From the NCBI RefSeq assembly GCF_024055715.1, contig NZ_JAMXMV010000002.1, forward strand, positions 372,001 to 436,000: a stretch of 64,000 bases of DNA. Direction: 5' to 3'. The notes beneath the pieces were generated by a model. The model saw only the letters and a list, made by a program, of their open reading frames with translations, had not been told where the DNA came from and did not search any database. The position numbers were made by a program, and so were the translations under genes. Positions 19,801 through 61,294 of the stretch are shown piece after piece; position 1 is the stretch's first letter, and each line of letters opens with the position of its first letter. Origin of the DNA: Actinoallomurus soli (lineage in GTDB: Bacteria; Actinomycetota; Actinomycetes; Streptosporangiales; Streptosporangiaceae).

Positions 19801-20625
19801 TCAGTCGTTCTCCGCGAGCCGCTTGAGGAGGGTGATGGAGTCCTCCGGGGACAGGGCGCGCTCGCGGGCCTGGGTGAAGGCCGCGCGGTACCGGCCGATC
19901 TCCTCGGCCGTCTCGATGAACTCGTTCCGGTTGAGCAGCTCGACGGCGACGATCGAGGGGTCCTCGCCGGAGAACTCGAAGATCTGGAAGGGGAAGCCCA
20001 TCGCCTGGTGCGGTCCCGCGTCGAACGCGAGGATGCGGACCGTCACGTGTTCCTGGACCGCCGCTCTCAGCAGGCGGTTGTACTGCTCGACCATGAGCGC
20101 CCGACTGCCGATGATCCGTCGCAGGCAGGACTCGTCGAGCACGAGGTCCACGCGCGGCGGCTCCGGCCGTACCAGGATCTCCTGCCGCTCCATGCGCAGG
20201 TCCAGCCGGCGGCGCATCTGGTCGAGCGGGACGTCGTTCCACGAGTCCATCAGGGCGTGGGCGTAGTCGCGGGTCTGCAGCAGGCCGGCCACGAGATTCG
20301 TCTCGTAGATCGAGATGGCGACGGCCTCGTCCTCCAGGCTGAGGAGGGTCTCCATACCCTCTTCCACCACGTCGGAATAGTGGACCCACCAGCCCTTGCT
20401 GCGCGCCTGGCGCACCATCTGCAAGAGCACTTCCCGGCGCTCGTCGGTGACCTGGTAGAGGTCGAGGAGGTCTCTGGCGTCCTGAATCCGCACGGCGACC
20501 TGGGCGTTCTCGATGCGGCTCACCTTCGCCGGGGAGCATTCGAGGTATTCGGCGACCTCGTCCAGCGTACGGCGGGAGGCGGCTCGCAGCCGTTGCAGCT
20601 CAGCGGCCAGCCTGCGGCGTCGCAT
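19801..20625 (-). CDS. XRE-family regulator with DUF5753 (Scr1-type)
   Basis: I start at the ATG at 20625 (274 residues) because AGGAG lies seven bases upstream; in-frame starts at 20652 and 20664 have poorer sites. The N-terminus is an XRE helix-turn-helix (T-L-D-E-V-A-E-Y-L-E-C-S-P-A-K-V-S-R-I-E-N). The rest is DUF5753: W-W-V-H-Y-S-D-V-V-E, Y-E-T-N-L-V-A-G-L-L-Q-T, R-M-E-R-Q-E-I-L and V-L-D-E-S-C-L-R-R. Such proteins are transcription factors that neutralise or are modulated by a small DUF397 protein and control development or antibiotic genes. A half-DUF397 gene faces it. Confidence 0.92.
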   Translation of the reverse strand: MRRRRLAAELQRLRAASRRTLDEVAEYLECSPAKVSRIENAQVAVRIQDARDLLDLYQVTDERREVLLQMVRQARSKGWWVHYSDVVEEGMETLLSLEDEAVAISIYETNLVAGLLQTRDYAHALMDSWNDVPLDQMRRRLDLRMERQEILVRPEPPRVDLVLDESCLRRIIGSRALMVEQYNRLLRAAVQEHVTVRILAFDAGPHQAMGFPFQIFEFSGEDPSIVAVELLNRNEFIETAEEIGRYRAAFTQARERALSPEDSITLLKRLAEND

Positions 20626-21143
20626 CACGGGGCTCCTGCCACCTGCGGTCATCGGACCATCCATCCGTCGTCATTACCGGACCGGCCGAAGATCAATTAT
20701 GACTACCGCCGAGTACGTCTGATGCGGTGAGCATATCCGTGCACCTTCCTTCCTGCAATTTGCAGTTTGCATCGCCTCTGGTCGGACGAGGGATCGGGAC
20801 AGCACCAGCCCCTGGCGGGGATAAGCGCCCGTCCCCAGTCCCCGCCCCAGGCCGGCCCACCCCCGAACCCGGGGATTGACCGGCGACAGCGGCGAGAGCA
20901 ACGCTTTCCCCCTGTCATCACCGGCCGATCGCCCGCGCCCATCGATTCCGCTACCGCTTCCCATCCGTCGCCCGGGGGTGACGCTCCGGAGCCTCTCCCG
21001 GCGAAACGACCGGAGGCTCCCGATCCGTTCCTACATGTTGCAACTTTCGCAAAGAGAAGTGCATACTTCGACATGCTGAGCGTAAGATGCTCGACCGTCC
21101 CGCCGGAAGAGGGCCGGAGGGCCGATGGACGGGGGTCCACGTG
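20626..21143. promoter_or_regulatory. Divergent control region with TTGCA-type dyads
   Basis: This 518-base region separates the two divergent XRE/DUF5753 genes and holds no supported gene. Near the first gene is TGCAATTTGCA (20754-20764, a 5-1-5 inverted repeat) followed directly by a further TTTGCA. Near the second are GTTGCAAC (21037-21044) and GCAA (21049-21052). The shared TTGCA half-site suggests both regulators read a common or related operator. Most of the remainder is GC-rich with no further signal. Confidence 0.5.
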
Positions 21144-21980
21144 GTGAACTCGTACGCCCGGAGGCGGGAGATGGGCGCGGTCCTGCGCGAACACCGTCTC
21201 GCCGCAGAGGTCGAGATCCGCTCGGCCGCCGAGCACCTCGACTGCTCGCCCGCCCGGGTGACGCGGATCGAGGACGGGCTGGCGGCCCTGCGCGTGGCGG
21301 AGGCCCGCGACCTGCTCGACCTCTATCGGGTGCCCGCCGCGGAGCGGGACGGTCTCCTCCAGGCGGCACAGGAGACGGCAGGACGGAACTGGTGGTATCC
21401 GTACGCCGATCTCGTCGATGACGCCTTCGAGACCCTTCTGATCCTGGAGGACGAGGCGCACTGCGTCCGCACCCACCAGCCGAACCTCGTGCCGGGCCTG
21501 CTGCAGACCTACCGGTACGGCTGGGAGCTGATGAGCACCCTGAGCGACCTGCCGCTCGGAGAGGTGGAGCGACGCATGCGGTTGCGGGCCGCCCGGCAAC
21601 GGGTGTTGCTGCGTGACCATCCGCCCAGGCTGGCCGTCGTGCTGGACGAGGCGGCTCTGCGCCGGCCGGTCGGCGGGCCGGACGTGATGCGGCTGCAGTA
21701 CGAGCGCCTCATCGAGGTGGCCACCATGCCGACGACCACTTTGCAGGTGCTGCCGCTGAACGCCGGGCCGCATCGGGCGATGGGATTCGCCTTCCACATC
21801 TTCGAGCTCGACGGGGACGGCGCTCGGATCATGCAGCTGGAGTTCCTCGACCACGAGCGTTTCACCGAGGACGCCGACGAGGTCGCCCGCTACGCGGAGG
21901 CGTACGAGGCGGCGTCGCGGCGAGCGCTGGACCGGGAGCGCTCCCTGGACTTCCTGCGCGCGCTGGCCGGAAGAGGCTGA
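21144..21980 (+). CDS. XRE-family regulator with DUF5753 (second copy)
   Basis: From the GTG at 21144 (GGGGG eight bases upstream; an adjacent GTG at 21141 is possible) the product has 278 residues. The helix-turn-helix contains I-R-S-A-A-E-H-L-D-C-S-P-A-R-V-T-R-I-E-D. DUF5753 follows with W-W-Y-P-Y-A-D-L-V-D, Q-P-N-L-V-P-G-L-L-Q-T, R-A-A-R-Q-R-V-L and V-L-D-E-A-A-L-R-R-P-V-G-G. The second half is closely similar to the copy at 19801 (L-N-A-G-P-H-R-A-M-G-F against F-D-A-G-P-H-Q-A-M-G-F), so the pair look like a diverged duplication. A half-DUF397 gene lies downstream on the opposite strand. Confidence 0.92.
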   Translation: MNSYARRREMGAVLREHRLAAEVEIRSAAEHLDCSPARVTRIEDGLAALRVAEARDLLDLYRVPAAERDGLLQAAQETAGRNWWYPYADLVDDAFETLLILEDEAHCVRTHQPNLVPGLLQTYRYGWELMSTLSDLPLGEVERRMRLRAARQRVLLRDHPPRLAVVLDEAALRRPVGGPDVMRLQYERLIEVATMPTTTLQVLPLNAGPHRAMGFAFHIFELDGDGARIMQLEFLDHERFTEDADEVARYAEAYEAASRRALDRERSLDFLRALAGRG

Positions 21981-22517: not shown

Positions 22518-23687
22518 ATGACCGACCGGCTTTCAGTCCCGTCCGAAGCGGCGCCGTTCCGGCTCCTCGGGCCCATCGCGGCGTACGCGCCGGGCACCGG
22601 CGACCCGATCGATCTCGGCCCCGACCACGAGCAGTGCCTCCTGGTCGTCCTGCTGGCGGCCGGTGGCAAGTCGGTGCCCCGGGATCGCCTGATCAAGGCC
22701 GTGTGGGACGACACGCCGCCGGAGGACCCCACCGACGCCATCTGGCGTCTCGTCTCCCGGTTGCGCCGCCGCCTGCAGGACGCCGGTCTCACCGACGTCC
22801 TCAAGCGCACCGGCGCGACGTACCGGCTGGAGGTGCCGCCCGAGCAGGTGGACCTGCACCGCTTCCGCGCGATGTCCGCGCAGGCGCGCCGGCTGCTCGG
22901 TCATGACGACCACCGCGCCGGGGAGCTGCTGGAGGAGGCGCTCGGACTGCACCGGGGCGTCCCGCTGGCCGGCCTGAAGGGCACCTGGATCGACGCCTAC
23001 CGGCACACCATCACCGAGGAGTACCACATGGCGGAGATCGCCCTGTACGAGCTGGCCATCCGGCTCGGCAAGTCGCGGGACGTCGTGCCCGCACTCACCA
23101 ACCTCCTGCACGAGCGGCCGGACGACGAGTCGGTCGCCTGGCTGACCATGCACGCCCTCTACCGCTCGGGCCGGCAGGGTGACGCGCTCGCCGTCTACCG
23201 GGAGATCACCGAGCACCTGGACCGGACACTCGCCGTACCGAGCCTCGCGGCACTGGCCGACCTGCACCAGCGCATGCTGGCGAGCGATCCCGGCCTGATG
23301 ACCGCCGATGCGGTCGCGATCCCCTTCGGCCGGTCCGGAGCGCCCAGGGCCCTGCCCGCCGGCGACGGCCCGGCCGCCGGCGGGACCGACGCCGGCGGAG
23401 CCGGCCCGGAGGGGACCGGCGCGGAGGGGACCGGCGCGGAGGGGACCGGCGCGGAGGGGACCGGCGCGGAGGGGACCGGCGCGGAGGGGACCGGCGCGGA
23501 GGGGACCGGCGCGGAGGGGACCGGCGGGGCCGGCGCCGACGACGCCCGGGAGCCGAAGGACACCGCCCGTACGGAGCAGGAGGAGCCGCGGCGCGGCACC
23601 TCGGTCACGGCCCAGGAGGTCGGGAACGTCGCCGTCTTCGAAGCGCCGGTCACGGTCCGTGAGGGCTTCAACTTCACCGCCTCCTGA
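22518..23687 (+). CDS. SARP-like regulator (OmpR-type DNA-binding + BTAD) with C-terminal beta-prone motif
   Basis: The ATG at 22518 gives 389 residues. Residues about 15-95 look like the SARP winged helix (F-R-L-L-G-P-I, V-P-R-D-R-L-I-K-A-V-W, W-R-L-V-S-R-L-R-R-R-L). The all-helical BTAD follows to about residue 260 (V-D-L-H-R-F-R, A-L-G-L-H-R-G-V-P-L-A-G-L, R-S-G-R-Q-G-D-A-L-A-V-Y-R). Residues 298-337 are eight E-G-T-G-A pentapeptides, a flexible linker. The last 22 residues (368-389) carry V-G-N-V-A-V-F, V-T-V and G-F-N-F, a motif repeated in the next gene's product. It has no NB-ARC domain of its own, unlike AfsR. It is the first gene of an eight-gene operon and probably activates it or a distant target. 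Confidence 0.85.
   Translation: MTDRLSVPSEAAPFRLLGPIAAYAPGTGDPIDLGPDHEQCLLVVLLAAGGKSVPRDRLIKAVWDDTPPEDPTDAIWRLVSRLRRRLQDAGLTDVLKRTGATYRLEVPPEQVDLHRFRAMSAQARRLLGHDDHRAGELLEEALGLHRGVPLAGLKGTWIDAYRHTITEEYHMAEIALYELAIRLGKSRDVVPALTNLLHERPDDESVAWLTMHALYRSGRQGDALAVYREITEHLDRTLAVPSLAALADLHQRMLASDPGLMTADAVAIPFGRSGAPRALPAGDGPAAGGTDAGGAGPEGTGAEGTGAEGTGAEGTGAEGTGAEGTGAEGTGAEGTGGAGADDAREPKDTARTEQEEPRRGTSVTAQEVGNVAVFEAPVTVREGFNFTAS
23409..23528 (+). repeat. 15-bp tandem repeat, seven perfect copies plus one variant
   Basis: The unit GAGGGGACCGGCGCG is repeated seven times without a mismatch and an eighth copy ends GGG. It encodes E-G-T-G-A repeats in the linker of the SARP-like protein. Each gain or loss keeps the frame, so the linker length can vary by slippage. 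Confidence 0.95.
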
Positions 23688-23745
23688 CGCCGCGCCCTCC
23701 GCGGCCCGTCTCCTCTCCCGAACCGCGAGCACGAACGGAACCCTC

Positions 23746-26118
23746 ATGACCAGACCCTCCGACGGCGATCCCGCGGATCCGCCCGGACGCCCCGTACCTC
23801 CGCGCGGCGCCGGCGGCCGCCCCGCCGGCCGGGACCACCCGGCGGGCGGGAAAGGCGCCGGCGGCCCCGCGATTCCTCCCGGGCGCCGCCCGGCGTCCGA
23901 CCCGCCCCGCGCCGACACTCCCCACGCCGACGAGGACCCGCCCGCGGACGCCGCTGCGCCGGCCGCTCCGGAGGAGGAGCCCGAGCCGTCCGTCGACGAC
24001 CAGCTGCGGGCGCTCGGAGAGCACGGCGCCGACGACACCGACCTGCAGGACGCGATCCAGGCCAAGCTGATCGCCGAGCGGGTGGCGTCGCGCCTGCAAC
24101 GCGACCCGTCGGGCATGCGGATCGGCAACCTCGCGCTGTTCAACGGCAGCGTGACCGTCGGCAGCGGCTTCCACTTCAGCGCGCCGGACGGGTCGCCCGC
24201 CGCCGGGGCCCGCGGGGTACGCCGCGTCGACGCCGCACGTCTCGCCGCGCAGGTCGAGAGGTATCTGCGTCCGCCGCGCTTCGATGACGCCCTGGACCGT
24301 CTGTGGCAGCACCGTCTGCTCGTCCTCGCGGCGCGGCAGGGGACGGGCCGGCAGACCGCGGCGCTGAACCTCCTCGCCGAGGTCCTGGCGATGAGCGGTG
24401 ACGGAGGAGCAGAAGACGGATCCTGCTTCCACGTGACCGACATCGAGGCGGTCGCCGACACGGACTGGAAGCCGCCGACGGAGGGCTGCGGTTACGTCGT
24501 CCTGCTCGACGGCGTCATGAGCGCCTCCACGATGTGGACCGCCGAGGCGATCGACGAACACTGGCTCGCGGCCAAGGCCGACCGGCTGCGGGAGGCCCGC
24601 AGCTTCATGGTCGTGGTGACGGGTCCACCCCGTGGCGCGCTGGTCGAGGCGTCCGCGCGCAGCCTCCACGTCGTCACGTCGCTCGGCGACGTCGACCTGC
24701 TCGCCGTCGTCGAACGCCACGCGCTCGGCCCGGCTCCGGACGCCGGTGCGAAGGCGGCGCTGCGCCGGCGGCTGGCCGAGTCGAACGCCCTCACCCTGCT
24801 GACCGAGGAGCGTCCGGAGCCGCAGGTCGCCATCCAGGTGGCGACGGCCGTCCGCGACGACGAGGACCTGGCGCGGACGGTCACGGCGCTGCGCGATCCG
24901 ACGGGTCAGGTGCACGCCTGGTTCGGTCAGCACCGCGACGTGGAGAGCATCTGCATGGCGATCGCCGCGGCGGTCCTGGAGGACGGCCACTATCTCGCGT
25001 TCTCCGACGCGGCGGTGCGGTTGTACGAGGCGCTGACCCCGACGACCGGAGCCCCGCCCGACCTGCGGTTCTGGGAACAGCTCAGCGCGGGCCACCCCTG
25101 GATCGAAGTGGTGACGGGCGACGGCCCCGCACCGCCGCGGGTACGGTTCCGCAACCCGCTCGTGCAGCAGGCGGTCCTCGCCTACGTGTGGACGAACCTC
25201 GACGGCCGGCGGCCCGCGCTGCTGGACTGGCTGCGCGATCTCGTCACCGACCGGAACATCGGCGTACGCGCCCGCGCGGCCGTCGCGGCGGGAGTGATCG
25301 CCTGGTGCGACCACGGCCATGCCGTCCGCCGGTACCTGCGCTCCTGGGCGCTCGACCGTTCCTGGGCGTTGCGTCAGGGAGCGGCCACCGCGCTGGCGGT
25401 CATGGGGGCCGACCCCGGCCTGACCGCGGCGACGTGGCGTCTTCTGGAGTCGTGGGCGCACGAGGACGAGACGGAGGCCGGGCGGCGTCTGGCCGCGACC
25501 GCGGTCACCGCGGTCGGCGGCCATCTGGGCGGCGCACAGCCGGAGCGGGCGCTGCGGCTGATCCGCCAGGCCCTCGACGGGGAGGGCTTCGACACGCTCC
25601 TCCCGGCGGCCCTCAGCCTCGCCCGGCTGGTCGAACTCGGCCGTACGACCGAGGTCCTGAACGCGCTGCTGGAGTGGTCGGAGCCGCAGGACTCCTCTCC
25701 GCTGGTGGCCAAGGCCCTGGGCATCTTCGCCACCGTGACCTGCGAGCCGCCGACGACGGTGGCGGATGAGGACGCCGGTCTGGTGCGGTGGAGGTCGCCC
25801 GGCGACGGACCACCGCCGCTCCTGCTCGCGCAGGCCCGCGACCACCTGCCACAGCTCGCCGAACTGTGGGCGCGCGCGCTGGCCCGCAAGCCCGCCCAGA
25901 CCTACGCCCTCGAGAAACTGCGGGACTGCCTGGAGGCGTACGCCGACCACGATCCCGCGATCCGGCGGAATCTGACGGCCGTGCTGGCCGAGGTCGCCAC
26001 CCGCCCCGGGCGGCATCGGGAGCGGCTGGCCTGGCACCTCGGCGAATGGGCCCGCGACGACGACCGTCCTTCGTCGTCCGCCGCCCACCTCCGCGACGCC
26101 CTCGCGCGGACGCGCTGA
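23746..26118 (+). CDS. STAND-like protein with degenerate P-loop and HEAT-like C-terminus
   Basis: This is a 790-residue protein from the ATG at 23746. Residues 1-85 are proline/glycine-rich disorder. Residues 126-147 carry I-G-N-L-A-L-F, V-T-V and G-F-H-F, matching the C-terminus of the preceding protein. A STAND-like core follows: L-L-V-L-A-A-R-Q-G-T-G-R-Q-T (190s-204) resembles Walker A but has Arg202 for lysine and Gln203 for Ser/Thr. Y-V-V-L-L-D-G (250-256) resembles Walker B. From about residue 480 the sequence is helical and HEAT-like (R-A-R-A-A-V-A-A-G-V, L-R-Q-G-A-A-T-A-L-A-V-M-G). Nucleotide binding may be weak or lost. I infer a scaffold or sensor that partners the SARP-like protein. 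Confidence 0.7.
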   Translation: MTRPSDGDPADPPGRPVPPRGAGGRPAGRDHPAGGKGAGGPAIPPGRRPASDPPRADTPHADEDPPADAAAPAAPEEEPEPSVDDQLRALGEHGADDTDLQDAIQAKLIAERVASRLQRDPSGMRIGNLALFNGSVTVGSGFHFSAPDGSPAAGARGVRRVDAARLAAQVERYLRPPRFDDALDRLWQHRLLVLAARQGTGRQTAALNLLAEVLAMSGDGGAEDGSCFHVTDIEAVADTDWKPPTEGCGYVVLLDGVMSASTMWTAEAIDEHWLAAKADRLREARSFMVVVTGPPRGALVEASARSLHVVTSLGDVDLLAVVERHALGPAPDAGAKAALRRRLAESNALTLLTEERPEPQVAIQVATAVRDDEDLARTVTALRDPTGQVHAWFGQHRDVESICMAIAAAVLEDGHYLAFSDAAVRLYEALTPTTGAPPDLRFWEQLSAGHPWIEVVTGDGPAPPRVRFRNPLVQQAVLAYVWTNLDGRRPALLDWLRDLVTDRNIGVRARAAVAAGVIAWCDHGHAVRRYLRSWALDRSWALRQGAATALAVMGADPGLTAATWRLLESWAHEDETEAGRRLAATAVTAVGGHLGGAQPERALRLIRQALDGEGFDTLLPAALSLARLVELGRTTEVLNALLEWSEPQDSSPLVAKALGIFATVTCEPPTTVADEDAGLVRWRSPGDGPPPLLLAQARDHLPQLAELWARALARKPAQTYALEKLRDCLEAYADHDPAIRRNLTAVLAEVATRPGRHRERLAWHLGEWARDDDRPSSSAAHLRDALARTR

Positions 26119-26152: not shown

Positions 26153-27358
26153 ATGACGACATACGACCCGATAGTCGAGATACGCGCTCTGCGGTCCCTC
26201 CGGCTGCTCAGCCCGTTGCGGCCGCCCGAGCCGGGCCGCGCGCTCGTCCTGGTGCCGCGCTCGGGCGAGCCGCAGGCGATCCACCACGGTGGATCGGTGC
26301 CCTCCGCCTGGGGCGGGAAATACCAGTCGTCCTACCTGGTCGACATGACCGAGCACTGGCTCAAGATCGAGCTCTCGCTGCTCAGCAAGGACCCCAGCTT
26401 CGCGTTCCGGGGCTCCGTCGGGCTGCTCGCCGGCGTCAACGACCCGATCGAGGTGGTCGCACGCGGGATCCGCGACGTCGGCCGTGCGCTGGAGGACCAC
26501 ACCAGGTGGCTGCTCCGGCAGGTGTCGCGCGACTACGACATCGCGCAGTTCCACGACGCCGAACGCGCGCTGAACGTCGCGGTGCGCGGCTTCACCGGCG
26601 ACTCCGCGATCCGGCTGCGCGACGTCACGGTCGAGCTGCAGGTGGACGACGATGAGGTCGTCGCGAGCGGGCGGGCGTACCGCGACGCCGAACGGGACGC
26701 CCGGTTGAGCGACCGGCGCCGGGACCGGCACCTGGCGATACTGCGCCGCGACGGTGTGGAGGCGCTCCTGGCCGAGATCTTCGAGAGGGAGGGACCCCAG
26801 GCCGTCCTGGACCGGATCGCGGCCGCGGAGGACGCCGAACGCGAGGAGCTCATGCGGGCCTGGCAGACGGTCCTGAACAACTCCGACGTCGAGCCGTTCG
26901 ACATGGTGGAGGCCCAGCGCACCGTACTGCGGCGCTGGATGGAGGGGCCCAGCGCGCCGTTCGGAGGCACCCGGTCGGGCCGCCTGCGCGGCACGATCCC
27001 CGCCGCCTCCGCGCCTCCCGAGCTGGAGTCCGGAGCGCGGCCCGACGACGACCGGGACGGCGTTCCAGGCCGGGACGGCGTCGCGGGCCGGGACGGTCGT
27101 CGGGCGGCCGAGCACGGCGGCGCGACGGGCCGTGGCGGCACGCTGCACGGCGAACGGGCGAGCGGCCGGCCGGGGCCGTCGGAGGGACCACCGGAGGACG
27201 AGCCGGACGGTGGCGCCGACCGGCGTGTCCCGCACGGCGCCGCGCCGGGAGAGCCGCCGCCGAAACCGGGCGGCGGCGCGACCGGCGGCCCGCGGCAGAC
27301 GAGCCGGATACGGGGGGCGCGTCCGGCGCGCCACCCCGGTGAGGGACGTCGCCCATGA
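26153..27358 (+). CDS. SPFH/Band-7-like protein with disordered tail
   Basis: This is a 401-residue protein. Residues about 50-185 (S-L-L-S-K-D-P-S-F-A-F-R-G-S-V, N-D-P-I-E-V-V, R-G-I-R-D-V, R-D-Y-D-I, L-R-D-V-T-V-E-L) follow the pattern of an SPFH/Band-7 domain: a strand-rich part, then a D-P pair, then a helix carrying the A-L-N motif. A charged helical region to about 265 could oligomerise as in stomatins. The last 120 residues are low-complexity R/G/P/E. There is no N-terminal membrane helix. The assignment is by pattern only. Its stop overlaps the PP2C start (ATGA), so it is translated with the phosphorylation genes. Confidence 0.55.
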   Translation: MTTYDPIVEIRALRSLRLLSPLRPPEPGRALVLVPRSGEPQAIHHGGSVPSAWGGKYQSSYLVDMTEHWLKIELSLLSKDPSFAFRGSVGLLAGVNDPIEVVARGIRDVGRALEDHTRWLLRQVSRDYDIAQFHDAERALNVAVRGFTGDSAIRLRDVTVELQVDDDEVVASGRAYRDAERDARLSDRRRDRHLAILRRDGVEALLAEIFEREGPQAVLDRIAAAEDAEREELMRAWQTVLNNSDVEPFDMVEAQRTVLRRWMEGPSAPFGGTRSGRLRGTIPAASAPPELESGARPDDDRDGVPGRDGVAGRDGRRAAEHGGATGRGGTLHGERASGRPGPSEGPPEDEPDGGADRRVPHGAAPGEPPPKPGGGATGGPRQTSRIRGARPARHPGEGRRP

Positions 27359-28383
27359 ACGTCGACGCGACCAGCTGGCATGGAGGGGCCGTCTGGACCC
27401 ACCGGAGCGATGCGGTGCTGGCCGTCGCGGTGTGGACGGAGAGACGCCCGGGATACGGCGAGGACGCCGAGCCGTTGTTCGCCCATCACCTGCCGACCGC
27501 CCAGGGCGTCACCGGAGTGTTCGACGGAGCGGCCGGGGCCGGGGCGTCGGCGGCGTACGAACCGGGTGACGGCACCGTCCGCAACGGTGCCTGGGTGGGG
27601 TCGCGGACCGCGCGGGCCGCCGTGGAGTCCTGGTTCCGTGGCCACGTCGAACACGGCACCGCCCCCGACGCCGAGTCCCTGCGCCGCCGGGCGGACGAGT
27701 TCCTCACCTCGATGCGGCCGTCCAGCCGGAGCAAGATCATCGGAACCGTACGGAAGGACCTGCCGACGACCATGGCGGTGGCCCAGTACGAGCTCCGTCA
27801 GGGCCAGGCGCACTGCCGCGCGCTCTGGGCGGGCGACTCACGGGTGTACGCGCTGACGCCCCGCGCCGGGCTCCAGGCGCTGACCCGCGATCACACGGCG
27901 GAGACCGACGCGCTGGAACAACTGCGCCAGGATCCGCCGATGACCAACCTGCTCAGCGCGGGACGGCCGTTCGAGGTGGACGTCAACACCCTGACCGTCG
28001 GCCTGCCGTGCGTGCTCGTCACCGCGACCGACGGATTCTTCGGATACGTTCCCGCGCCCGCGTACTTCGAATGGCACCTGCTCGACACGCTCGGCCAGGC
28101 CCATGACGAGGGGAACTGGGGCCTGCTTCTGGCCCGCCGGGTGATGGGGTACACCGCCGACGACGCCTCGCTCAGCGTCGTCGCCCTGGGCTTCCACGAC
28201 TTCGCGCACCTGCGCGAGAGCTTCAGCGTCCGCGCGAACGACGTCCACATCAAGTACGTCGCGGCCGGACCACCGCCCGACCACGACCCGGCGGCCGTAC
28301 GGGCCTGGCAGACGCAGACCTGGCACGCCTACCGGGAGCTGTACGAGAAGCGGATGCCCGCGTACACGGAGGTGCGCGCGTGA
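27355..28383 (+). CDS. PP2C-type protein phosphatase
   Basis: This 342-residue protein has PP2C metal-site motifs in order: G-Y-G-E-D (Glu36, Asp37, like the usual N-Q/E-D), G-V-F-D-G-A-A-G (Asp57-Gly58), a T-T-M-A-V-A strand, W-A-G-D-S-R-V-Y, L-T-R-D-H-T, L-V-T-A-T-D-G-F-F and D-D-A-S-L-S-V-V. Such Mn2+/Mg2+-dependent enzymes remove phosphate from Ser/Thr. The start overlaps the SPFH-like gene and the stop overlaps the kinase start, so phosphatase and kinase are made together and probably act on the same target, such as the vWA protein or membrane zinc-ribbon protein of this operon. Confidence 0.88.
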   Translation: MNVDATSWHGGAVWTHRSDAVLAVAVWTERRPGYGEDAEPLFAHHLPTAQGVTGVFDGAAGAGASAAYEPGDGTVRNGAWVGSRTARAAVESWFRGHVEHGTAPDAESLRRRADEFLTSMRPSSRSKIIGTVRKDLPTTMAVAQYELRQGQAHCRALWAGDSRVYALTPRAGLQALTRDHTAETDALEQLRQDPPMTNLLSAGRPFEVDVNTLTVGLPCVLVTATDGFFGYVPAPAYFEWHLLDTLGQAHDEGNWGLLLARRVMGYTADDASLSVVALGFHDFAHLRESFSVRANDVHIKYVAAGPPPDHDPAAVRAWQTQTWHAYRELYEKRMPAYTEVRA

Positions 28384-29576
28384 AGAGACGCGGCGACGAG
28401 GTCGGGGGCTACCGCCTGCTGACCGACCCCACCAACGAGGGCGGGGCGAACTGCATGTGGGCGTTCGCCGAGAAGGACGGCCGGCAGTACTTCATCAAGC
28501 GCTTCCTGGAGCCGAAACGCCCCAAGGATGGTTCGCCGGCGAACGCCACCGCCCGGAAGCTGATGCTCGAGGAGTGCGAGGAGTTCGAGGAGCGGCACCG
28601 CTCGATCATGGAACGCCTGTCGCACGACATGAGCGGTGGCGGCAACCTCGTCCTGGCCGTGGACCTCTTCCACGAGGGGTGCACCTATTACAAGGTCACC
28701 GAGCGGATCGAGACGTCCAGCCTCGAACACCCCGAGCGGCTCGGCTCCCGGGAGAAGGCCATCCTTCTGCGCACTCTCGCGCTGAGCGTGCAGCTGCTGC
28801 ACGGCATCGACGTCGTCCACGGTGACCTCAAACCCGACAACGTCCTCGTCCAGAAGAAGCCCGGCAGTCCGTTCCACGTCGCCAAGCTCATCGACTTCGA
28901 CGACTCCTTCATCTCCGGCCGGCCACCGGCCCGCGAGGTCATCGGCGGGGATCAGTTCTTCGGCGCACCGGAATGGCGGCGTTACGTCCAGGGGGACGAG
29001 AGCGTGCAGCCGGAGCACCTGACCACGGCCACCGACGTCTTCGCGCTGGGCCTGATGATCCACTATTACCTCACCGGCGCCCTGCCCGGCCACGACGACC
29101 GTTTCCAGTTCCCCGCCGACGCGGTCACGGCCGGTGAGGCGCTGCGCATCGATCCGCGGATCGGCCCGGTGATGACCGACATGGTGCGCGCGATGACGGC
29201 GCGCGCCCCCGGAGCCCGCCCGGACGTCGCCGCGCTGCTGGCCGCCCTGAAGGACACCGACGTCTGCGACCTCCGGAGTCCGGCGCCCACCGCCGAGGCC
29301 CCGGCGGCCCGTCCCTCGGCGGGGAGCGCCCGGCCGGCGGGCAGCCGGGTGAAGAAGAACCTGTTCGGCAGGATTCGCGGCACGCCGGGCGGCCCAGGCG
29401 GCACCGACGGCCCCGACAGCCCCGAGGGCACCGAGGGCACCGACAGCGCGGAGACGACCGGGAGAACCGAACCGGCGGACCCGGACAGGCCCACCGTCTC
29501 CCGGGTGCGCATCAACCTGCCGCCGCCGGTGGACCCCGGCGGCCGATCCCCCAGAACGAGAGGAGAACGGCGATGA
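28380..29576 (+). CDS. Ser/Thr protein kinase
   Basis: This 398-residue kinase starts at a GTG overlapping the phosphatase stop. It has the ATP lysine in Y-F-I-K-R-F (Lys40), the catalytic loop V-H-G-D-L-K-P-D-N (Asp149) and a metal loop I-D-F-D-D (Asp172) with aspartate in place of the usual DFG glycine. G-A-P-E-W is the APE motif and D-V-F-A-L-G-L the F-helix. The long insert after the lysine is rich in E and K. The last 110 residues are disordered (T-E-G-T-D-S, P-P-P-V-D-P-G-G) and no transmembrane helix is present, so it is cytoplasmic, unlike PknB-type kinases. With PP2C and vWA it forms a TerY-P-like triad. Confidence 0.92.
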   Translation: MKRRGDEVGGYRLLTDPTNEGGANCMWAFAEKDGRQYFIKRFLEPKRPKDGSPANATARKLMLEECEEFEERHRSIMERLSHDMSGGGNLVLAVDLFHEGCTYYKVTERIETSSLEHPERLGSREKAILLRTLALSVQLLHGIDVVHGDLKPDNVLVQKKPGSPFHVAKLIDFDDSFISGRPPAREVIGGDQFFGAPEWRRYVQGDESVQPEHLTTATDVFALGLMIHYYLTGALPGHDDRFQFPADAVTAGEALRIDPRIGPVMTDMVRAMTARAPGARPDVAALLAALKDTDVCDLRSPAPTAEAPAARPSAGSARPAGSRVKKNLFGRIRGTPGGPGGTDGPDSPEGTEGTDSAETTGRTEPADPDRPTVSRVRINLPPPVDPGGRSPRTRGERR

Positions 29577-30280
29577 CGTCCAATGGCCAATATCAGGGGA
29601 GCCTGCAGTACGCGGTCGACATCGTGATGTGCATCGACGTCACCGGGAGCATGCACCCGGTGCTGGGCAACGTGAAGAAGAGCGCCCTGCTCTTCCGCGA
29701 CCGGCTCGAGTCCGTCATGCACGAGAAGGGGAAGGAGATCAGCCGGCTTCGCCTCAAGGTCATCGCCTTCCGCGACTTCGCGGACTACGCCGACGACGCC
29801 ATCGAGCAGACGGACTTCCTCGTCTTCCCCGAGCAGGCTGCGGTGTTCGACGACTTCGTCGGGCGGCTGGAGGCCGATGGCGGCGGCGACGCTCCGGAGT
29901 CCGGCCTGGAGGCCCTCGCCCTGGCCATCAACGCCGACTGGGAGCGAGGGCTGGACCGCCGACGGCATGTCATCGTCATGTTCACCGACGCGCCGGCGCA
30001 CCCGCTGGGCAGCCCGGCCTCGACCGCCGCCCACACCTACCCGCCGAACATCCCGCGCAGCATGGACGAGCTCTCCGCCCAGTGGGGATACGGACGCAGC
30101 CAGACGGCGGTCATGGACAACGCCGCCAAACGTCTCGTCCTCTTCGCGCCGGACATCTCCCCGTGGACGGAGATCTCCGAGGAGTGGAGCCTCGCCATGC
30201 ACTTCCCTTCCAAGGCGGGGCACGGCCTCGAGGAGTTCGAGATGGACGAGATCATCAACACGATTGCGTACAGCCTGTGA
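29573..30280 (+). CDS. von Willebrand factor A domain protein (TerY-like)
   Basis: This 235-residue protein is essentially one vWA domain. The metal-ion-dependent adhesion site is intact: I-D-V-T-G-S-M (Asp22, Thr24, Ser26), a conserved G-G-G-D-A-P-E-S-G loop supplying the threonine-equivalent region, and I-V-M-F-T-D-A-P-A-H. It begins with an overlap on the kinase stop. vWA proteins of this kind, accompanied by a PP2C phosphatase and a kinase, were described as TerY-P triads in tellurium-resistance-type stress systems. It probably binds a partner in a phosphorylation-dependent way. Confidence 0.9.
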   Translation: MTSNGQYQGSLQYAVDIVMCIDVTGSMHPVLGNVKKSALLFRDRLESVMHEKGKEISRLRLKVIAFRDFADYADDAIEQTDFLVFPEQAAVFDDFVGRLEADGGGDAPESGLEALALAINADWERGLDRRRHVIVMFTDAPAHPLGSPASTAAHTYPPNIPRSMDELSAQWGYGRSQTAVMDNAAKRLVLFAPDISPWTEISEEWSLAMHFPSKAGHGLEEFEMDEIINTIAYSL

Positions 30281-31683
30281 CACCGCGCTGGATCAATCGG
30301 GGCCGCCACGAGAGCGTCCGTCCCGGGTCCACCGCACCGGAGCACCGCCGCGGGGGTGGGATGCCGCCACCGCCCGGAATGCGGATCGACTGCGGGAACG
30401 CCCTTCTTGTGCTGTCCGACGGCCACCTGACCATCGACTGGGGACGGTTCGGAATGCTGAGCCTCCCGGCGGCCTGGTGCGGGGACGCGCAGGTGCTCTT
30501 CGCGGCGGGGGAACTGCAGTTCAGCTGCCGCTTCACCGCACCGACGAGTATCTCGGGATCGCCGGACCTCGTCACGTTCCGGCTGTCCGTGCCGGCCGAA
30601 CACGGGGGGACCGCCTTCCAGATCGCCCAGGCGCTACGCGAAGCCGGCTCCGCGGCCTCGGATCCGCCGGACCGGTGGGAGGCGTCTCCGCCTGCGGCGT
30701 CCGACGGCGTGCCGCCGGCGGACGGTCCATCCTGGGCCGGCCACGCGCCCGGATCCACCCGAGAGCCGTCGCACGTACGGGAGCCTCAACGCCATGCCGA
30801 CGGCCGATGGGAGCCTGAGGAGAGCAGGCCGGCCGATCCGGCCGACCTCCCGGTCCAGTCGCCCACCGCCCCGGCGCCGCAAGGCCAGGCGTACGGAGCA
30901 CCGGAAGGCCGGGCGTACGGGGCGCCGGAAGGCCGGGCGTACGGGGCGCCGGAAGGCCGGGCGTACGGAGCACCGGAAGGCCGGGCGTACGGAGCACCGG
31001 AAGGCCGGGCGTACGGAGCACCGGGATCCTTCGGCGGGGCGCCGGGCGGATCGCCGATCTCCCCCGGCACGCCCGAGGACGTGTACGGGCATCCGCGGGA
31101 GGCGGCGTCCGACCGGCTGGGCACGGCCGGGCCGGTGGCTCCGACCGGCGGACTCGAGGGACGTGGTGGGATGCACCCGCCCCGTGACGCGCCTTCGGCG
31201 GATGCGGGCGCACCCGGGCTCTGGCACGGCATCGATACGTCCCCGCCGGCGGACGAGCCCTGGGGGCCGGCCGAACCGGTCCAACCCGCCCCGCCGGCCT
31301 CGCTGATCGAGTCGGTACGGCCCGCCGAGTCGGTACGCCCGGTCGAGTCGGTGCGGACACGGGAGCGGGGAGGAACCCATCCGTTGTTCGATCCCGGTCG
31401 AGCCGACCGGCCTTCGCCGCTGGAGGGGACGCCGGGGCAGGCGATGTTCTCCGGCCGGACGGCGTCCGAGGCGCCACCGCTGTTCCCGGCATCGTCCGCT
31501 GACCGGCCCTCGGCGGACCCGTCCGGCGTCCGCACGGTGACGACCGCACCGGAGAACGATCAGTGGGTCGGCTTCCGCCCCGGGCCGGACACCGAGCGCC
31601 TGATCGCCCGGCTGCCGCAGCGGGAGAGGCCCGGCGCGGCGGACGACGCACCGGGTGAGGAGAGGAGGTCGCGGCATGGCTGA
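30277..31683 (+). CDS. Repeat-rich protein with a conserved N-terminal domain, function unknown
   Basis: The GTG at 30277 overlaps the vWA stop (GTGA), giving 468 residues. Residues about 28-125 form a compact, strand-rich domain (M-R-I-D-C-G-N-A-L-L-V-L, L-T-I-D-W-G-R-F-G-M-L-S-L, F-R-L-S-V-P-A-E) that I cannot name. Residues 202-249 are six 8-residue repeats of E-G-R-A-Y-G-A-P. The rest is proline/serine-rich disorder, ending with a short W-V-G-F-R-P-G-P-D-T-E-R-L motif. It may be a kinase substrate or scaffold in this operon. The next gene's ATG lies inside its 3' end. Confidence 0.65.
   Translation: MTPRWINRGRHESVRPGSTAPEHRRGGGMPPPPGMRIDCGNALLVLSDGHLTIDWGRFGMLSLPAAWCGDAQVLFAAGELQFSCRFTAPTSISGSPDLVTFRLSVPAEHGGTAFQIAQALREAGSAASDPPDRWEASPPAASDGVPPADGPSWAGHAPGSTREPSHVREPQRHADGRWEPEESRPADPADLPVQSPTAPAPQGQAYGAPEGRAYGAPEGRAYGAPEGRAYGAPEGRAYGAPEGRAYGAPGSFGGAPGGSPISPGTPEDVYGHPREAASDRLGTAGPVAPTGGLEGRGGMHPPRDAPSADAGAPGLWHGIDTSPPADEPWGPAEPVQPAPPASLIESVRPAESVRPVESVRTRERGGTHPLFDPGRADRPSPLEGTPGQAMFSGRTASEAPPLFPASSADRPSADPSGVRTVTTAPENDQWVGFRPGPDTERLIARLPQRERPGAADDAPGEERRSRHG
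30880..31023 (+). repeat. 24-bp tandem repeat, six copies
   Basis: Six head-to-tail 24-base units encode Q/E-G-Q/R-A-Y-G-A-P. The first copy is slightly divergent and two copies differ by synonymous changes (GGGGCG for GGAGCA). The period keeps the reading frame, so copy number can change without breaking the protein. Confidence 0.93.
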
Positions 31684-32785
31684 TGTGACCTGGCGCTGCT
31701 CGTCCTGCGAGACCTACAACGACGCGAACGCCGGCGTGTGCATGGTCTGCGACACGCAGCGCGGCCGGTCGCCGGCGGACGGCGATTCGGGGCCGACCTG
31801 GCGGTGCCGGCAGTGCGACGTGTGGAACGAGGCGGACCGGAACTCCTGCCAGGGCTGTGACACGAAACGGACCCTCGCCACCGAGCCGCTGCCCGGCAGG
31901 CCGGCGCCGGGCCCCAATGCCCGGGGACGGGTTCGCGGTCCCTCATGGAACCTCGTTGATCCATCGGCCGTTTCCACGCCGCCGGTTCCGCCGGTTCCGG
32001 CCGAGCCGCCCGGGACCGGGGCCGCCACCGGCTGGACCCGGTCACCGGGCGCCGACGCGGATGCCGGCCTGCCGCATGAGTTCCCCCCGGTCAAGCCCTA
32101 CTTCCCCGGGTCCGGTACCCCCTATCCCATCACGCGGCCGCCGGGCGGCCGGAAGTCGTCCAAGACGCTGGTGGGCATGGTGACCGCCGCCGTGATCGTC
32201 GTGGTGGTCCTGATCGCCGCCCTCTCGGCCCGCGGATCCGGTGGCCCGAGCGGCGGCCCGACGGGCACCCCCACGGAGACCAGCGGCAGCCCGAGTACCG
32301 GCGGCAACGACGCCTCCCCGGTCGGCGACTCCGGCACCGGGGAGGAGCAGGCGAGTACGGTCGACGCACTGCTGTCCCGCAGTTCCACGACCCGTTCGAA
32401 TCTGCGCACCGCCATCGACGGCATCCTCGACTGCTCCGACGTGGACGGCGGGGTCTCGACGCTCCGGAGTATCACGGACGATCGACGGTCCGAGCTCGCC
32501 GACGCCCGTGGTCTGTCGGTCGATGGGATCGACGGCGGTACCGAGATGAAGGACAAGCTCGTGCAGGCGCTCAAGGACTCCCTGGCCGCGGACGAGGCGT
32601 TCCTGTCCTGGGCCGAGGACACGCAGACGAACGGCTGCGACGGCAATGCCGACGTGACGAGCGACTATCGCCGGGGAGAAAGCGCCTCCTCCGCGGCCGG
32701 GGACGACAAGACGGCGTTCATCGGACTCTGGAACCCGATCGCCGACCGGTACCACCTCGACCGGCGAACGCCCGACGACGTGTGA
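31676..32785 (+). CDS. Membrane protein with two RanBP2-type zinc ribbons
   Basis: The ATG at 31676 has a GAGGAGG ribosome-binding site and gives 369 residues. Two cytoplasmic zinc ribbons open the protein: W6 with C8/C11/C22/C25 and W42 with C44/C47/C58/C61, each C-x2-C-x10-C-x2-C. A proline-rich linker, one transmembrane helix (about 164-183) and an exterior domain of about 150 residues with two cysteines follow. The exterior domain is helical (D-A-L-L-S-R-S-S, R-S-E-L-A-D-A-R-G) and unassigned. It is the last gene of the operon and could carry the kinase/phosphatase output to the membrane or sense an outside signal. Confidence 0.8.
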   Translation: MADVTWRCSSCETYNDANAGVCMVCDTQRGRSPADGDSGPTWRCRQCDVWNEADRNSCQGCDTKRTLATEPLPGRPAPGPNARGRVRGPSWNLVDPSAVSTPPVPPVPAEPPGTGAATGWTRSPGADADAGLPHEFPPVKPYFPGSGTPYPITRPPGGRKSSKTLVGMVTAAVIVVVVLIAALSARGSGGPSGGPTGTPTETSGSPSTGGNDASPVGDSGTGEEQASTVDALLSRSSTTRSNLRTAIDGILDCSDVDGGVSTLRSITDDRRSELADARGLSVDGIDGGTEMKDKLVQALKDSLAADEAFLSWAEDTQTNGCDGNADVTSDYRRGESASSAAGDDKTAFIGLWNPIADRYHLDRRTPDDV

Positions 32786-59332: not shown

Positions 59333-59566
59333 AGCACGCCCGTCCGCCGGTTCGACCCTTCGCACGACACCACGACCGCGGGCCGCCGTCCCGTTGACCG
59401 CCCGAACGACGCGCATCGGGCGAGCACGAGGTGACGCTTCATGTCCGCCGTGTCATAGGAACGCGCCAAAAGGCGGCGTTCTCCTCACACCCCCGCCATG
59501 ACGTGGCCGCCGAGTCTCTTTGACATGCGCTCGGCCGCCCGTAGTTCCCTTGGAAGGGAAACTGAC

Positions 59567-61294
59567 ATGGAGTTCCGCATCCTCGGGCCCATCCGAGTGA
59601 CCGACGGCGACCACGAGGAGGCGTTGCGCGGCGCGAAGCAGCGGACCGTGCTCGCCACGCTCCTGCTGGCCGGCGGCCGGGTCGTGTCGGACGAGCAGCT
59701 CACCGAGCGGCTCTGGGACTGGCACCGGCCCGCCACCGCGAGCGCGCAGATCTACACCTACGTCTCGCGCCTCCGCAAGCTTTTAAGAGGTGAGCTGGTC
59801 ATCAACCGGCTCACCACGGGCTACCAGATGAACATCGACGACCTGGACTGCGACCACGTCCGGTTCGAGGAGCTCTCGCAGGCGGGCGCGGAGGCCCTCC
59901 GGGACGGCCGGTACACCGAGGCCGCCGCCGTCCTGCGGCGGGCACTGGGGTTGTGGCGGGGCCGTGCCCTCGAAGACGCCACCGCCCGCCTCATCGAGAT
60001 GGAGGGCCCCCGGCTCCAGGAGGCCCGGATGACCGCCCTGGAGGCGCGGATCGAGGCCGACCTGGCCCTGGGTCGGCACCGGCAGCTCACCGCGGAGCTG
60101 ACCGGGCTGGTCGCCTCGAACCCGTTGCGCGAACGCCTCAGGGCCCAGCTGATGACGGCCCTGTACCGCTGTGACCGGCAGGCGGAGGCGGTCGCGGCGT
60201 ACCACGAGGGCCGCACATTGCTGGTCGAGGAGCTCGGCGTCGACCCCGGCCGGGAGCTGACGGAGACCTACCAGCAGTTGCTGACCGGCGCGCTGGCCCT
60301 GCCGAGGGCCGGGGCCTGGTCGGGCGTCACCCCCGCGATGCTCCCCCGCGACCTCGGGGACTTCACCGGACGCGAGCCGGAGCGGGCCTCGATCGCCGCC
60401 TGGCTCCGCGCGAAGTCCCCGGAACCGATCGTGATCACCGGCATGCCCGGCATCGGCAAGACGATGCTGGCCGTCCACGCCGCCCACGCGGACGCGACGA
60501 GCTTCCCCGACGGCCACCTGTTCGCCGAGCTGCACTCGCCGGCCGATCAGCCCCGCCGTCTCGAGGAGGTGCTCGGCGGATTCCTCGTCGCCCTGGGCAC
60601 CCCGCCGCAGATGCTGCCCACCGGGCTCGACTGGCGGATCCAGCTCTATCGCAGCCTGCTGGCCACCAAGCGGATGCTGATCGTCCTCGACGACGCGGAG
60701 ACGCTGGAGCAGGTCCAGCCGTTCCTGCCGACCAGCGGTCCCAGCGCCGCGATCATCACCACGCAGACGCCCGCGGCGGCGCCGCCCGGGTCCCGCGTGC
60801 TCAACCTGGACCCGCTGGCGCCCCATCAGGCGCGCGAGCTGCTCGGCGCCATCGTGGGCGAACGGCGGCTCCAGGCCGAACAGCAGGCCACCGGCCAGGT
60901 CCTCCGCTACTGCGGCGGCATGCCCATGGCGCTGCGAATAGCCGGAGCGCGGCTGGTCGCCAATCCGGGTTGGCGGGTGGCCGACCTTGCCGACCGCCTC
61001 CATCCGGCGGACCGCCGCATGGACGAACTGCACGCCGGGGACCTGGACCTCCGCCAGCGTCTTCAGCGCGGCTACTCACGTCTGGACGTCGCGCACCAGG
61101 CCGTCATGCGCCGACTCGGACAGAGCGGGACCACCGTCCGCGACGAGTACATCGCGGTGGACGTCGCGCAGATCCTCGACGAACTGACCGAACGCGGCCT
61201 GCTGAACGCCGCCGGGCCCCGGTACCGGATGCACGCGCTGATGTACCTCTGGGCCAACGGCCTGGGCGACCCCGTCGGGGAGCTCTCGTCCTGA
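59567..61294 (+). CDS. AfsR/SARP-family regulator with NB-ARC domain
   Basis: The ATG at 59567 (GGAAGGGAA ribosome-binding site) gives 575 residues. Residues 1-90 are the SARP winged helix (M-E-F-R-I-L-G-P-I, L-T-E-R-L-W, Y-V-S-R-L-R-K-L-L). Residues 95-250 are the BTAD (F-E-E-L, A-L-G-L-W-R-G-R-A-L, Y-R-C-D-R-Q-A-E-A-V-A-A-Y). The NB-ARC follows with G-M-P-G-I-G-K-T (Lys298), M-L-I-V-L-D-D-A and G-G-M-P-M-A-L-R-I-A-G. The TPR region of full AfsR is absent. SARPs activate antibiotic clusters; convergence on the PAL-like gene suggests cluster-specific control. Confidence 0.9.
   Translation: MEFRILGPIRVTDGDHEEALRGAKQRTVLATLLLAGGRVVSDEQLTERLWDWHRPATASAQIYTYVSRLRKLLRGELVINRLTTGYQMNIDDLDCDHVRFEELSQAGAEALRDGRYTEAAAVLRRALGLWRGRALEDATARLIEMEGPRLQEARMTALEARIEADLALGRHRQLTAELTGLVASNPLRERLRAQLMTALYRCDRQAEAVAAYHEGRTLLVEELGVDPGRELTETYQQLLTGALALPRAGAWSGVTPAMLPRDLGDFTGREPERASIAAWLRAKSPEPIVITGMPGIGKTMLAVHAAHADATSFPDGHLFAELHSPADQPRRLEEVLGGFLVALGTPPQMLPTGLDWRIQLYRSLLATKRMLIVLDDAETLEQVQPFLPTSGPSAAIITTQTPAAAPPGSRVLNLDPLAPHQARELLGAIVGERRLQAEQQATGQVLRYCGGMPMALRIAGARLVANPGWRVADLADRLHPADRRMDELHAGDLDLRQRLQRGYSRLDVAHQAVMRRLGQSGTTVRDEYIAVDVAQILDELTERGLLNAAGPRYRMHALMYLWANGLGDPVGELSS

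Follow-up and report, generated by a model that had tools for sequence, protein, structure and literature searches.

How could a separate sensor protein switch on a transcription activator to which it has no covalent link? The question is raised by the 64,000-nucleotide stretch of the Actinoallomurus soli genome that we analysed (contig NZ_JAMXMV010000002.1, positions 372,001 to 436,000; hereafter the window), in which the genes of a SARP-type transcription activator and a STAND-like NTPase are neighbours on one strand, the former stopping at 23687 and the latter starting at 23746. The SARP ends in a short motif that recurs in the second protein, ahead of its NTPase part. Judged from these sequences and those of related loci, the two proteins probably constitute a sensor-effector pair joined by the homotypic motif, in which amyloid-like templating would activate the SARP. 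The elements of the pair are as follows.

22518..23687, + strand: SARP-type transcription activator, 389 residues, candidate effector of the pair (Trans_reg_C at residues 37-90 and BTAD at residues 111-254, above cut-off)
23607..23681, + strand: shared motif at the SARP C-terminus, residues 364-388 (alignment, BLASTP, genome profile search)
23746..26118, + strand: STAND-like NTPase with a HEAT-like C-terminal part, 790 residues, candidate sensor of the pair (nSTAND3 at E 0.005, HEAT_2 at E 0.001, neither reaching the cut-off; family alignment)
24109..24183, + strand: shared motif ahead of the NTPase part, residues 122-146 (alignment, BLASTP, genome profile search)

A motif shared by the SARP and the NTPase

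The ungapped alignment of SARP residues 368-389 with NTPase residues 126-147 contains 11 identical and 5 conservative positions among 22 (BLOSUM62 sum 60), and our recalculation thereby reproduced the counts of the first-pass annotation, which had been made from the sequence alone. BLASTP with the full proteins finds the same region (SARP 364-388 with NTPase 122-146, E 3e-4). Upon shuffling, the local score between the SARP tail (60 residues) and the NTPase N-terminus (200 residues) was attained in 1 of 5000 trials, and that between the whole proteins in 2 of 3000, or in 4 of 3000 when the residues were shuffled in 20-residue windows. Taken by itself, the pair is not overwhelming at these frequencies, and both proteins have low-complexity flanks, which would fit a chance likeness between two low-complexity stretches. 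We give this explanation next to no credence, considering the privacy of the motif within the genome and the family-wide excess of cognate matches with flat controls described below.

A two-row motif profile was run against the host genome, and its sole matches below E 1 were the two adjacent genes (about 1e-14 for each, the third-best match having E 1.28). A degenerate DNA pattern of the motif retrieved 10 stretches from the genome contig collection, none of them actinobacterial by record title, and we take them as chance matches. The exact window motif looks private, which agrees with a fast turnover of motifs and is by itself no proof of it.

Placement of the motif in the two proteins

An OmpR-type DNA-binding domain together with a BTAD defines the SARP family, and both were found above cut-off in the window protein. 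They end at residue 254 and are followed by a low-complexity linker rich in Gly, Ala, Thr and Glu, and the motif occupies the extreme C-terminus. The linker contains the following repeats.

23409..23513, + strand: seven in-frame 15-bp repeats encoding Glu-Gly-Thr-Gly-Ala, SARP linker (sequence, regular expression)

In the structure predicted from a two-row alignment (mean pLDDT, the predicted local distance difference test, 52.7), residues 257-389 lie below 50. The motif of the SARP thus follows a low-complexity linker in a stretch of low pLDDT, rather than lying inside a larger globular domain. As separate observations, slippage in the linker repeats could alter the number of units and the linker length with the frame kept, and two divergent HTH/DUF5753 regulators (19801-20664, - strand, and 21087-21980, + strand) lie directly upstream of the SARP gene.

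The NTPase begins with a Pro/Ala-rich region, followed by the motif, a P-loop-like stretch and the HEAT-like C-terminal part.

24328..24357, + strand: P-loop-like stretch GTGR, with Arg replacing the usual Lys (family alignment, sequence pattern)

The family alignment places the motif before the region that aligns among relatives, while the single-sequence structure prediction (mean pLDDT 43.9) is too poor to place it inside or outside a domain. The label "STAND-like" given by the annotation holds only faintly, the nSTAND3 match lying under the curated cut-off, and neither NB-ARC nor NACHT was found by Pfam in this protein at E up to 1. A profile of the NTPase retrieved only HEAT-type and weak ATPase matches among the solved structures (best E 0.0008), and PADLOC gave no match to the protein at E up to 0.1.

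Pairing across related loci

When the full-length NTPase was the query, 7 further genomes from the genus and 20 relatives yielded nothing related, nor did plasmids at E 0.01 or, by peptide patterns, the genome contig collection. These misses are partly explained by low sensitivity, because the NTPase core alone later picked up relatives in 4 of 30 further genomes from the family, and a profile of eight NTPases matched in 21 of 30 other genomes taken from the order. In the four genomes found with the core, the directly upstream gene ends in a motif like that of the NTPase N-terminus, and each of these motifs differs from that of the window. The NTPases of the relatives in the family alignment are 22-29% identical to the window NTPase. 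The NTPase of one of them, L032, has a frame broken in mid-gene (assembly error or pseudogene).

The eight-NTPase profile listed 31 places, among which 25 had E <=1.1e-19; 2 of these were already known and 23 were added, and plasmid record searches supplied further loci, some of them annotated. Before any counts were made, we omitted L087 (a near copy of L083 with an NTPase broken by an annotated IS701 transposase), L085, L086 and L088 (matches lacking the N-terminal part), six weak profile places (E >1e-5), and the plasmid matches H65-H70 (weak, partial), H78, H82 and H84. This left 36 loci. For NTPases with the N-terminal part, the pair score compares the last 45 residues of the nearest upstream same-strand coding-like open reading frame (ORF) with the stretch preceding the NTPase. 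The partner rule was changed after the first results, from a choice by coding score to the closest ORF that passed a low coding threshold; this brought L079 to its TIR gene, moved L082 away from its cyclase-like gene, and brought L034 to another non-matching ORF. L082 is scored here with the rule-chosen ORF (score 20, a miss), and its cyclase-like ORF farther upstream (score 54) enters the class count only.

The cognate sum over the 36 loci is 1712, as compared to a maximum of 1180 over 100,000 partner permutations, and the mean score is 47.6 for cognate and 25.4 for non-cognate pairs. The 27 loci added after the idea arose give the same picture by themselves, with a cognate sum of 1247 and at most 965 under permutation, and so do the 20 cyclase-like loci (1131, permutations at most 843); for the nine discovery loci the cognate sum is reached in 3 of 100,000 permutations. 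Two controls are flat. When the C-terminus of the NTPase is set against the following gene (n=31), cognate pairs score 23.5 and non-cognate pairs 23.4; when its N-terminus is set against a segment from inside the effector (n=36), the scores are 22.0 and 22.1. The cognate partner is the best of 36 in 18 loci, and 18 loci score above the 99th percentile of the non-cognate scores. Thirteen non-cognate scores reach at least 46.5, several of them between look-alike motifs such as those of L032/L033, L030/L061 and L074/L077.

In many loci the pairing is maintained while the motif sequence changes from one to the next, a result that reaches further than the check suggested in the annotation. A like-to-like motif at the effector C-terminus and before the NTPase of an adjacent partner, as the annotation had described for the window, is supported. 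Whether homologous operons lack the motif in one partner receives a divided answer: the cognate is on top in half of the loci, and the other half includes matches of lower score, loci with a motif class in common, and no fewer than four loci lacking a credible partner.

Are the paired motifs fresh copies of each other? Among the 21 pairs with a score of 42 or more, the codon is the same for 174 of 279 identical residues, as compared to 147 expected from codon usage; therefore, the motif pairs are no fresh copies. A functionless leftover of a recent duplication or gene conversion would account for this same-codon count being somewhat above expectation, but the codons differ at the other 105 identical residues, and the window pair, with the same codon at 6 of 11 (6.8 expected) and different codons at 5 of 11 (4.2 expected), has no excess. 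Moreover, the pattern recurs at loci whose NTPases are as distant as stated above. We regard such a leftover as very improbable.

The residues of the motifs in the 21 best pairs are enriched in Asn (4.8-fold), Ile, Tyr, Phe, Gln and Gly and depleted in Leu, Trp, Pro, Arg and Glu, relative to a composition background that includes untrimmed ORF starts. All of the sequence evidence would also suit any other like-with-like pairing. The motifs might accordingly pair in a small non-amyloid assembly, such as a beta-strand exchange or a short beta-helix; the NTPase would then hold the SARP or gather it into clusters, and no growth by templating would follow. This is a serious but rather unlikely alternative, since a free C-terminus that ends in a short motif rich in Gly and Asn, and the large number of unrelated motif sequences, match the descriptions of amyloid signalling in the available parts of PMC7889193 and PMC8086366, and the Asn enrichment points the same way. 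A putative amyloid remains the leading reading of the motif pair.

Partner classes and exchange of the effector

Which proteins are coupled to these NTPases? The 36 upstream proteins, clustered without their last 30 residues (the ORF of L082 being replaced by the cyclase-like one), form groups of 20, 5, 4 and 2 and five singles. By class, 20 partners are cyclase-like (class III), 5 are TIR proteins, 4 are SARPs, and 7 are others. A profile of 13 cyclase-like partners found class III cyclases among the solved structures (best 3mr7, E 1e-7), whereas Pfam gave a match in none of five such partners scanned. A Crp/Fnr-like gene lies near in 18 of the 20 cyclase-like loci, and the two exceptions, L063 and L073, are truncated at a contig end. 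In L083 and L087, on Streptomyces plasmids, an annotated Pycsar effector, a Crp/Fnr regulator, the cyclase-like gene and the NTPase are consecutive, and L081 and L082 contain homologues of the Pycsar-annotated gene. The TIR partners were assigned by annotation (L035), by Pfam (L075, L080) or by cluster only (L076, L079); the SARP partners are those of the window, L032, L033 and L072; and the partners in L062, L066 and L084 fall outside any assigned family. Two further observations concern these classes. The TIR tails of L075, L076, L079 and L080 contain several Gly/Asn-rich segments outside the compared stretch, perhaps repeated motif units, and the host genome contains a second pair (L058, contig C33, 430000-442000) of a cyclase-like protein and an NTPase, with a different matched motif and a Crp-like gene near.

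The SARP and NTPase genes of the window are followed on the same strand by these genes.

26153..27358, + strand: third gene, 401 residues, family without assignment (no Pfam match)
27355..28383, + strand: PP2C-like protein (weak NCBIfam PP2C matches, E 0.007-0.012)
28380..29576, + strand: serine/threonine kinase (Pkinase E 1e-16)
29573..30280, + strand: vWA protein (VWA_4 E 9e-9)
31655..32785, + strand: zinc-ribbon protein with a likely membrane helix (zinc-ribbon matches under cut-off; helix judged from sequence)

L062 is an orthologous operon, in which the identity to the window is 41% for the NTPase, 42% for the third gene, 46% for the PP2C-like protein, 57% for the kinase and 68% for the vWA protein; it holds part of the zinc-ribbon gene too. 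The NTPase motif of L062 belongs to the window class (score 77 against the window NTPase motif), and the genome has one TGA inside the NTPase match. The upstream protein has no similarity to the SARP at E 1e-3 and contains a hydrophobic helix, as judged from sequence. By shuffling, the score of its tail is attained in 8 of 5000 trials with its own NTPase motif, 108 of 5000 with the window SARP motif, and 380 of 5000 with the window NTPase motif. On the evidence of these sequences, the comparison of L062 with the window is a natural effector swap, in which the place of the SARP is taken by an unrelated protein that carries a variant of the motif peculiar to itself. This protein may resemble BELL effectors.

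The third gene bears on another explanation, in which each motif would be a docking tag read by one and the same third operon protein, whence their resemblance. A homologue is present in 18 of the 36 loci (7 of which served to build the model), its comparison with solved structures gave a single match at E 0.6, and a single site on such a protein could read both tags. In the other 18 loci the gene is undetected, some copies perhaps being too divergent or beyond the stretch examined, and the reader protein would need to change with each motif class. Docking tags are therefore improbable, though less so than a leftover of duplication.

Strength of the proposed coupling

The coupling of the SARP and the NTPase through their matched motifs is well supported. 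Several observations nevertheless weigh against the templated sensor-effector pair. The cognate partner is not the top match in 18 of 36 loci, and L034, L037, L070 and L071 lack a credible partner. The TIR loci by themselves (n=5) have no cognate excess (13,322 of 100,000 permutations), and the SARP loci are only four, their 4,050 of 100,000 being about the floor for that number; the SARP tail of L032 scores better with another locus than with its own. The L062 pair does only modestly when compared over all 36 loci, with a score of 27 and rank 4. The same-codon excess leaves room for some gene conversion, and the P-loop of the NTPase has Arg instead of Lys. Finally, the amyloid nature is putative: on a simple aggregation scale, the sole propensity scale applied, the window motifs rank 8 of 368 (SARP) and 10 of 769 (NTPase) windows.

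Comparison with known signalling systems

In bacterial amyloid signalling, as far as it is described in the available parts of PMC7889193, PMC12261475 and PMC8086366, one motif of a pair ends a BELL-type effector and the other stands at the beginning of the NLR encoded next to it, CHAT and TIR being rarer effectors; the motifs (BASS1-10) have 20-40 residues and form several unrelated families. The loci analysed here resemble BASS pairs in the adjacency of the genes, the similar motif at the effector C-terminus and receptor N-terminus, the several unrelated motifs, and TIR among the effectors. In contrast to BASS, the window receptor is faintly STAND-like with HEAT-like repeats and has no NB-ARC or NACHT match, and the partners are mostly cyclase-like instead of BELL effectors, the window effector being a SARP. 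From amyloid signalling as so described, these loci depart in the family of the receptor, in the frequent cyclase-like partner and in having a SARP as effector; among the matches listed in our literature search, no title or abstract opening describes amyloid signalling paired with a SARP, transcription effectors or cyclases.

The annotation had also proposed a "split AfsR" and had placed a single-chain version at 59567, which corresponds to the following ORF.

59498..61294, + strand: AfsR-like single-chain SARP with NB-ARC, for comparison only, no relative of the NTPase (BTAD and NB-ARC; similarity search)

According to the accessible part of PMC10936776, the NOD and TPR parts of AfsR inhibit it, ATP binding releases the inhibition, and the SARP domain binds the promoter as a dimer. 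The window pair is like an AfsR-type large SARP in having a SARP output alongside an NTPase, and unlike it in being divided between two chains, with HEAT-like rather than TPR repeats and a link that would be non-covalent. The idea holds as an analogy: clustering of the SARP by a separate NTPase is a plausible two-chain counterpart of AfsR. As a matter of descent it was rejected, the best match of the NTPase to the AfsR-like protein having E 1.1.

Cyclic nucleotide cyclases and TIR proteins are already known to be coupled to sensors via homotypic folded adaptors, and a helix-turn-helix domain in TRADD-N systems points to a transcriptional response (both from the portion of PMC8195603 available). 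Kinase, PP2C and vWA genes are adjacent in effector-associated-domain systems (PMC7159879, in the portion available). The window shares with these systems a proposed homotypic sensor-effector adaptor and adjacent kinase, PP2C and vWA genes as in the GAP1-N2 theme, the PP2C match being weak, but the adaptor of the pair is a short motif and not a folded domain. Neither GAP1-N2 nor a GTPase was found by Pfam in the 20 window proteins scanned, save a weak double-GTPase match inside an ABC-type protein. In addition, the relatives L083 and L087, and L081 and L082 with their homologues, are like Pycsar-like systems in having a class III cyclase-like gene near a Pycsar-annotated effector, while the window pair has no cyclase and its output is a SARP.

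Proposed mechanism and its meaning

The match between the two motifs, the lack of further copies in the host genome, the way motif and partner vary together from locus to locus, and the locus with another effector lead us to infer a course of events in which trigger, oligomerisation, recruitment, amyloid nature and target genes are all conditional.

Sensing: The NTPase with its HEAT-like repeats would sense a trigger and then oligomerise. The kinase, PP2C-like and vWA proteins encoded downstream may tune this sensing; of all loci searched, the window and L062 alone were found to combine the three genes, which counts against this step.

Templating: The clustered N-terminal motifs of the NTPase would form a cross-beta (amyloid-like) seed, which would recruit and template the matching C-terminal motif of the SARP.

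Activation: The SARP molecules would thereby be brought together, and, since the SARP domain binds the promoter as a dimer, the gathered molecules would turn the target genes on.

More broadly, an activator switched on by amyloid templating may be one member of a large family of actinobacterial systems, all built on a single HEAT-type NTPase chassis with ever-changing matched motifs and with exchangeable outputs, namely a SARP, a class III cyclase next to a Crp-like regulator, a TIR protein and perhaps a pore-former. We put this forward tentatively, as a proposition that could fall either way. If it is true, the templated state could provide a prion-like memory of gene expression. Known bacterial amyloid signalling is tied, in the descriptions available, to putative cell-death or defence effectors, and here the wiring reaches a transcription activator; with cyclase-like genes beside Crp-like regulators in the relatives, motif templating may govern second messengers as well as gene expression. 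Ready natural pairs with built-in specificity controls are available in the matched motifs, and together with the L062 swap they make the role of motif-coupled sensors directly testable.

Other observations

The module of PP2C-like, kinase and vWA genes (27355-30280) recurs in L023, on a Herpetosiphon plasmid, where the vWA protein is 44% and the PP2C-like protein 31% identical and a kinase gene lies alongside. Elsewhere in the window, another protein of 790 residues (12314-14686, - strand) has a weak NACHT match (E 1e-5, under cut-off).

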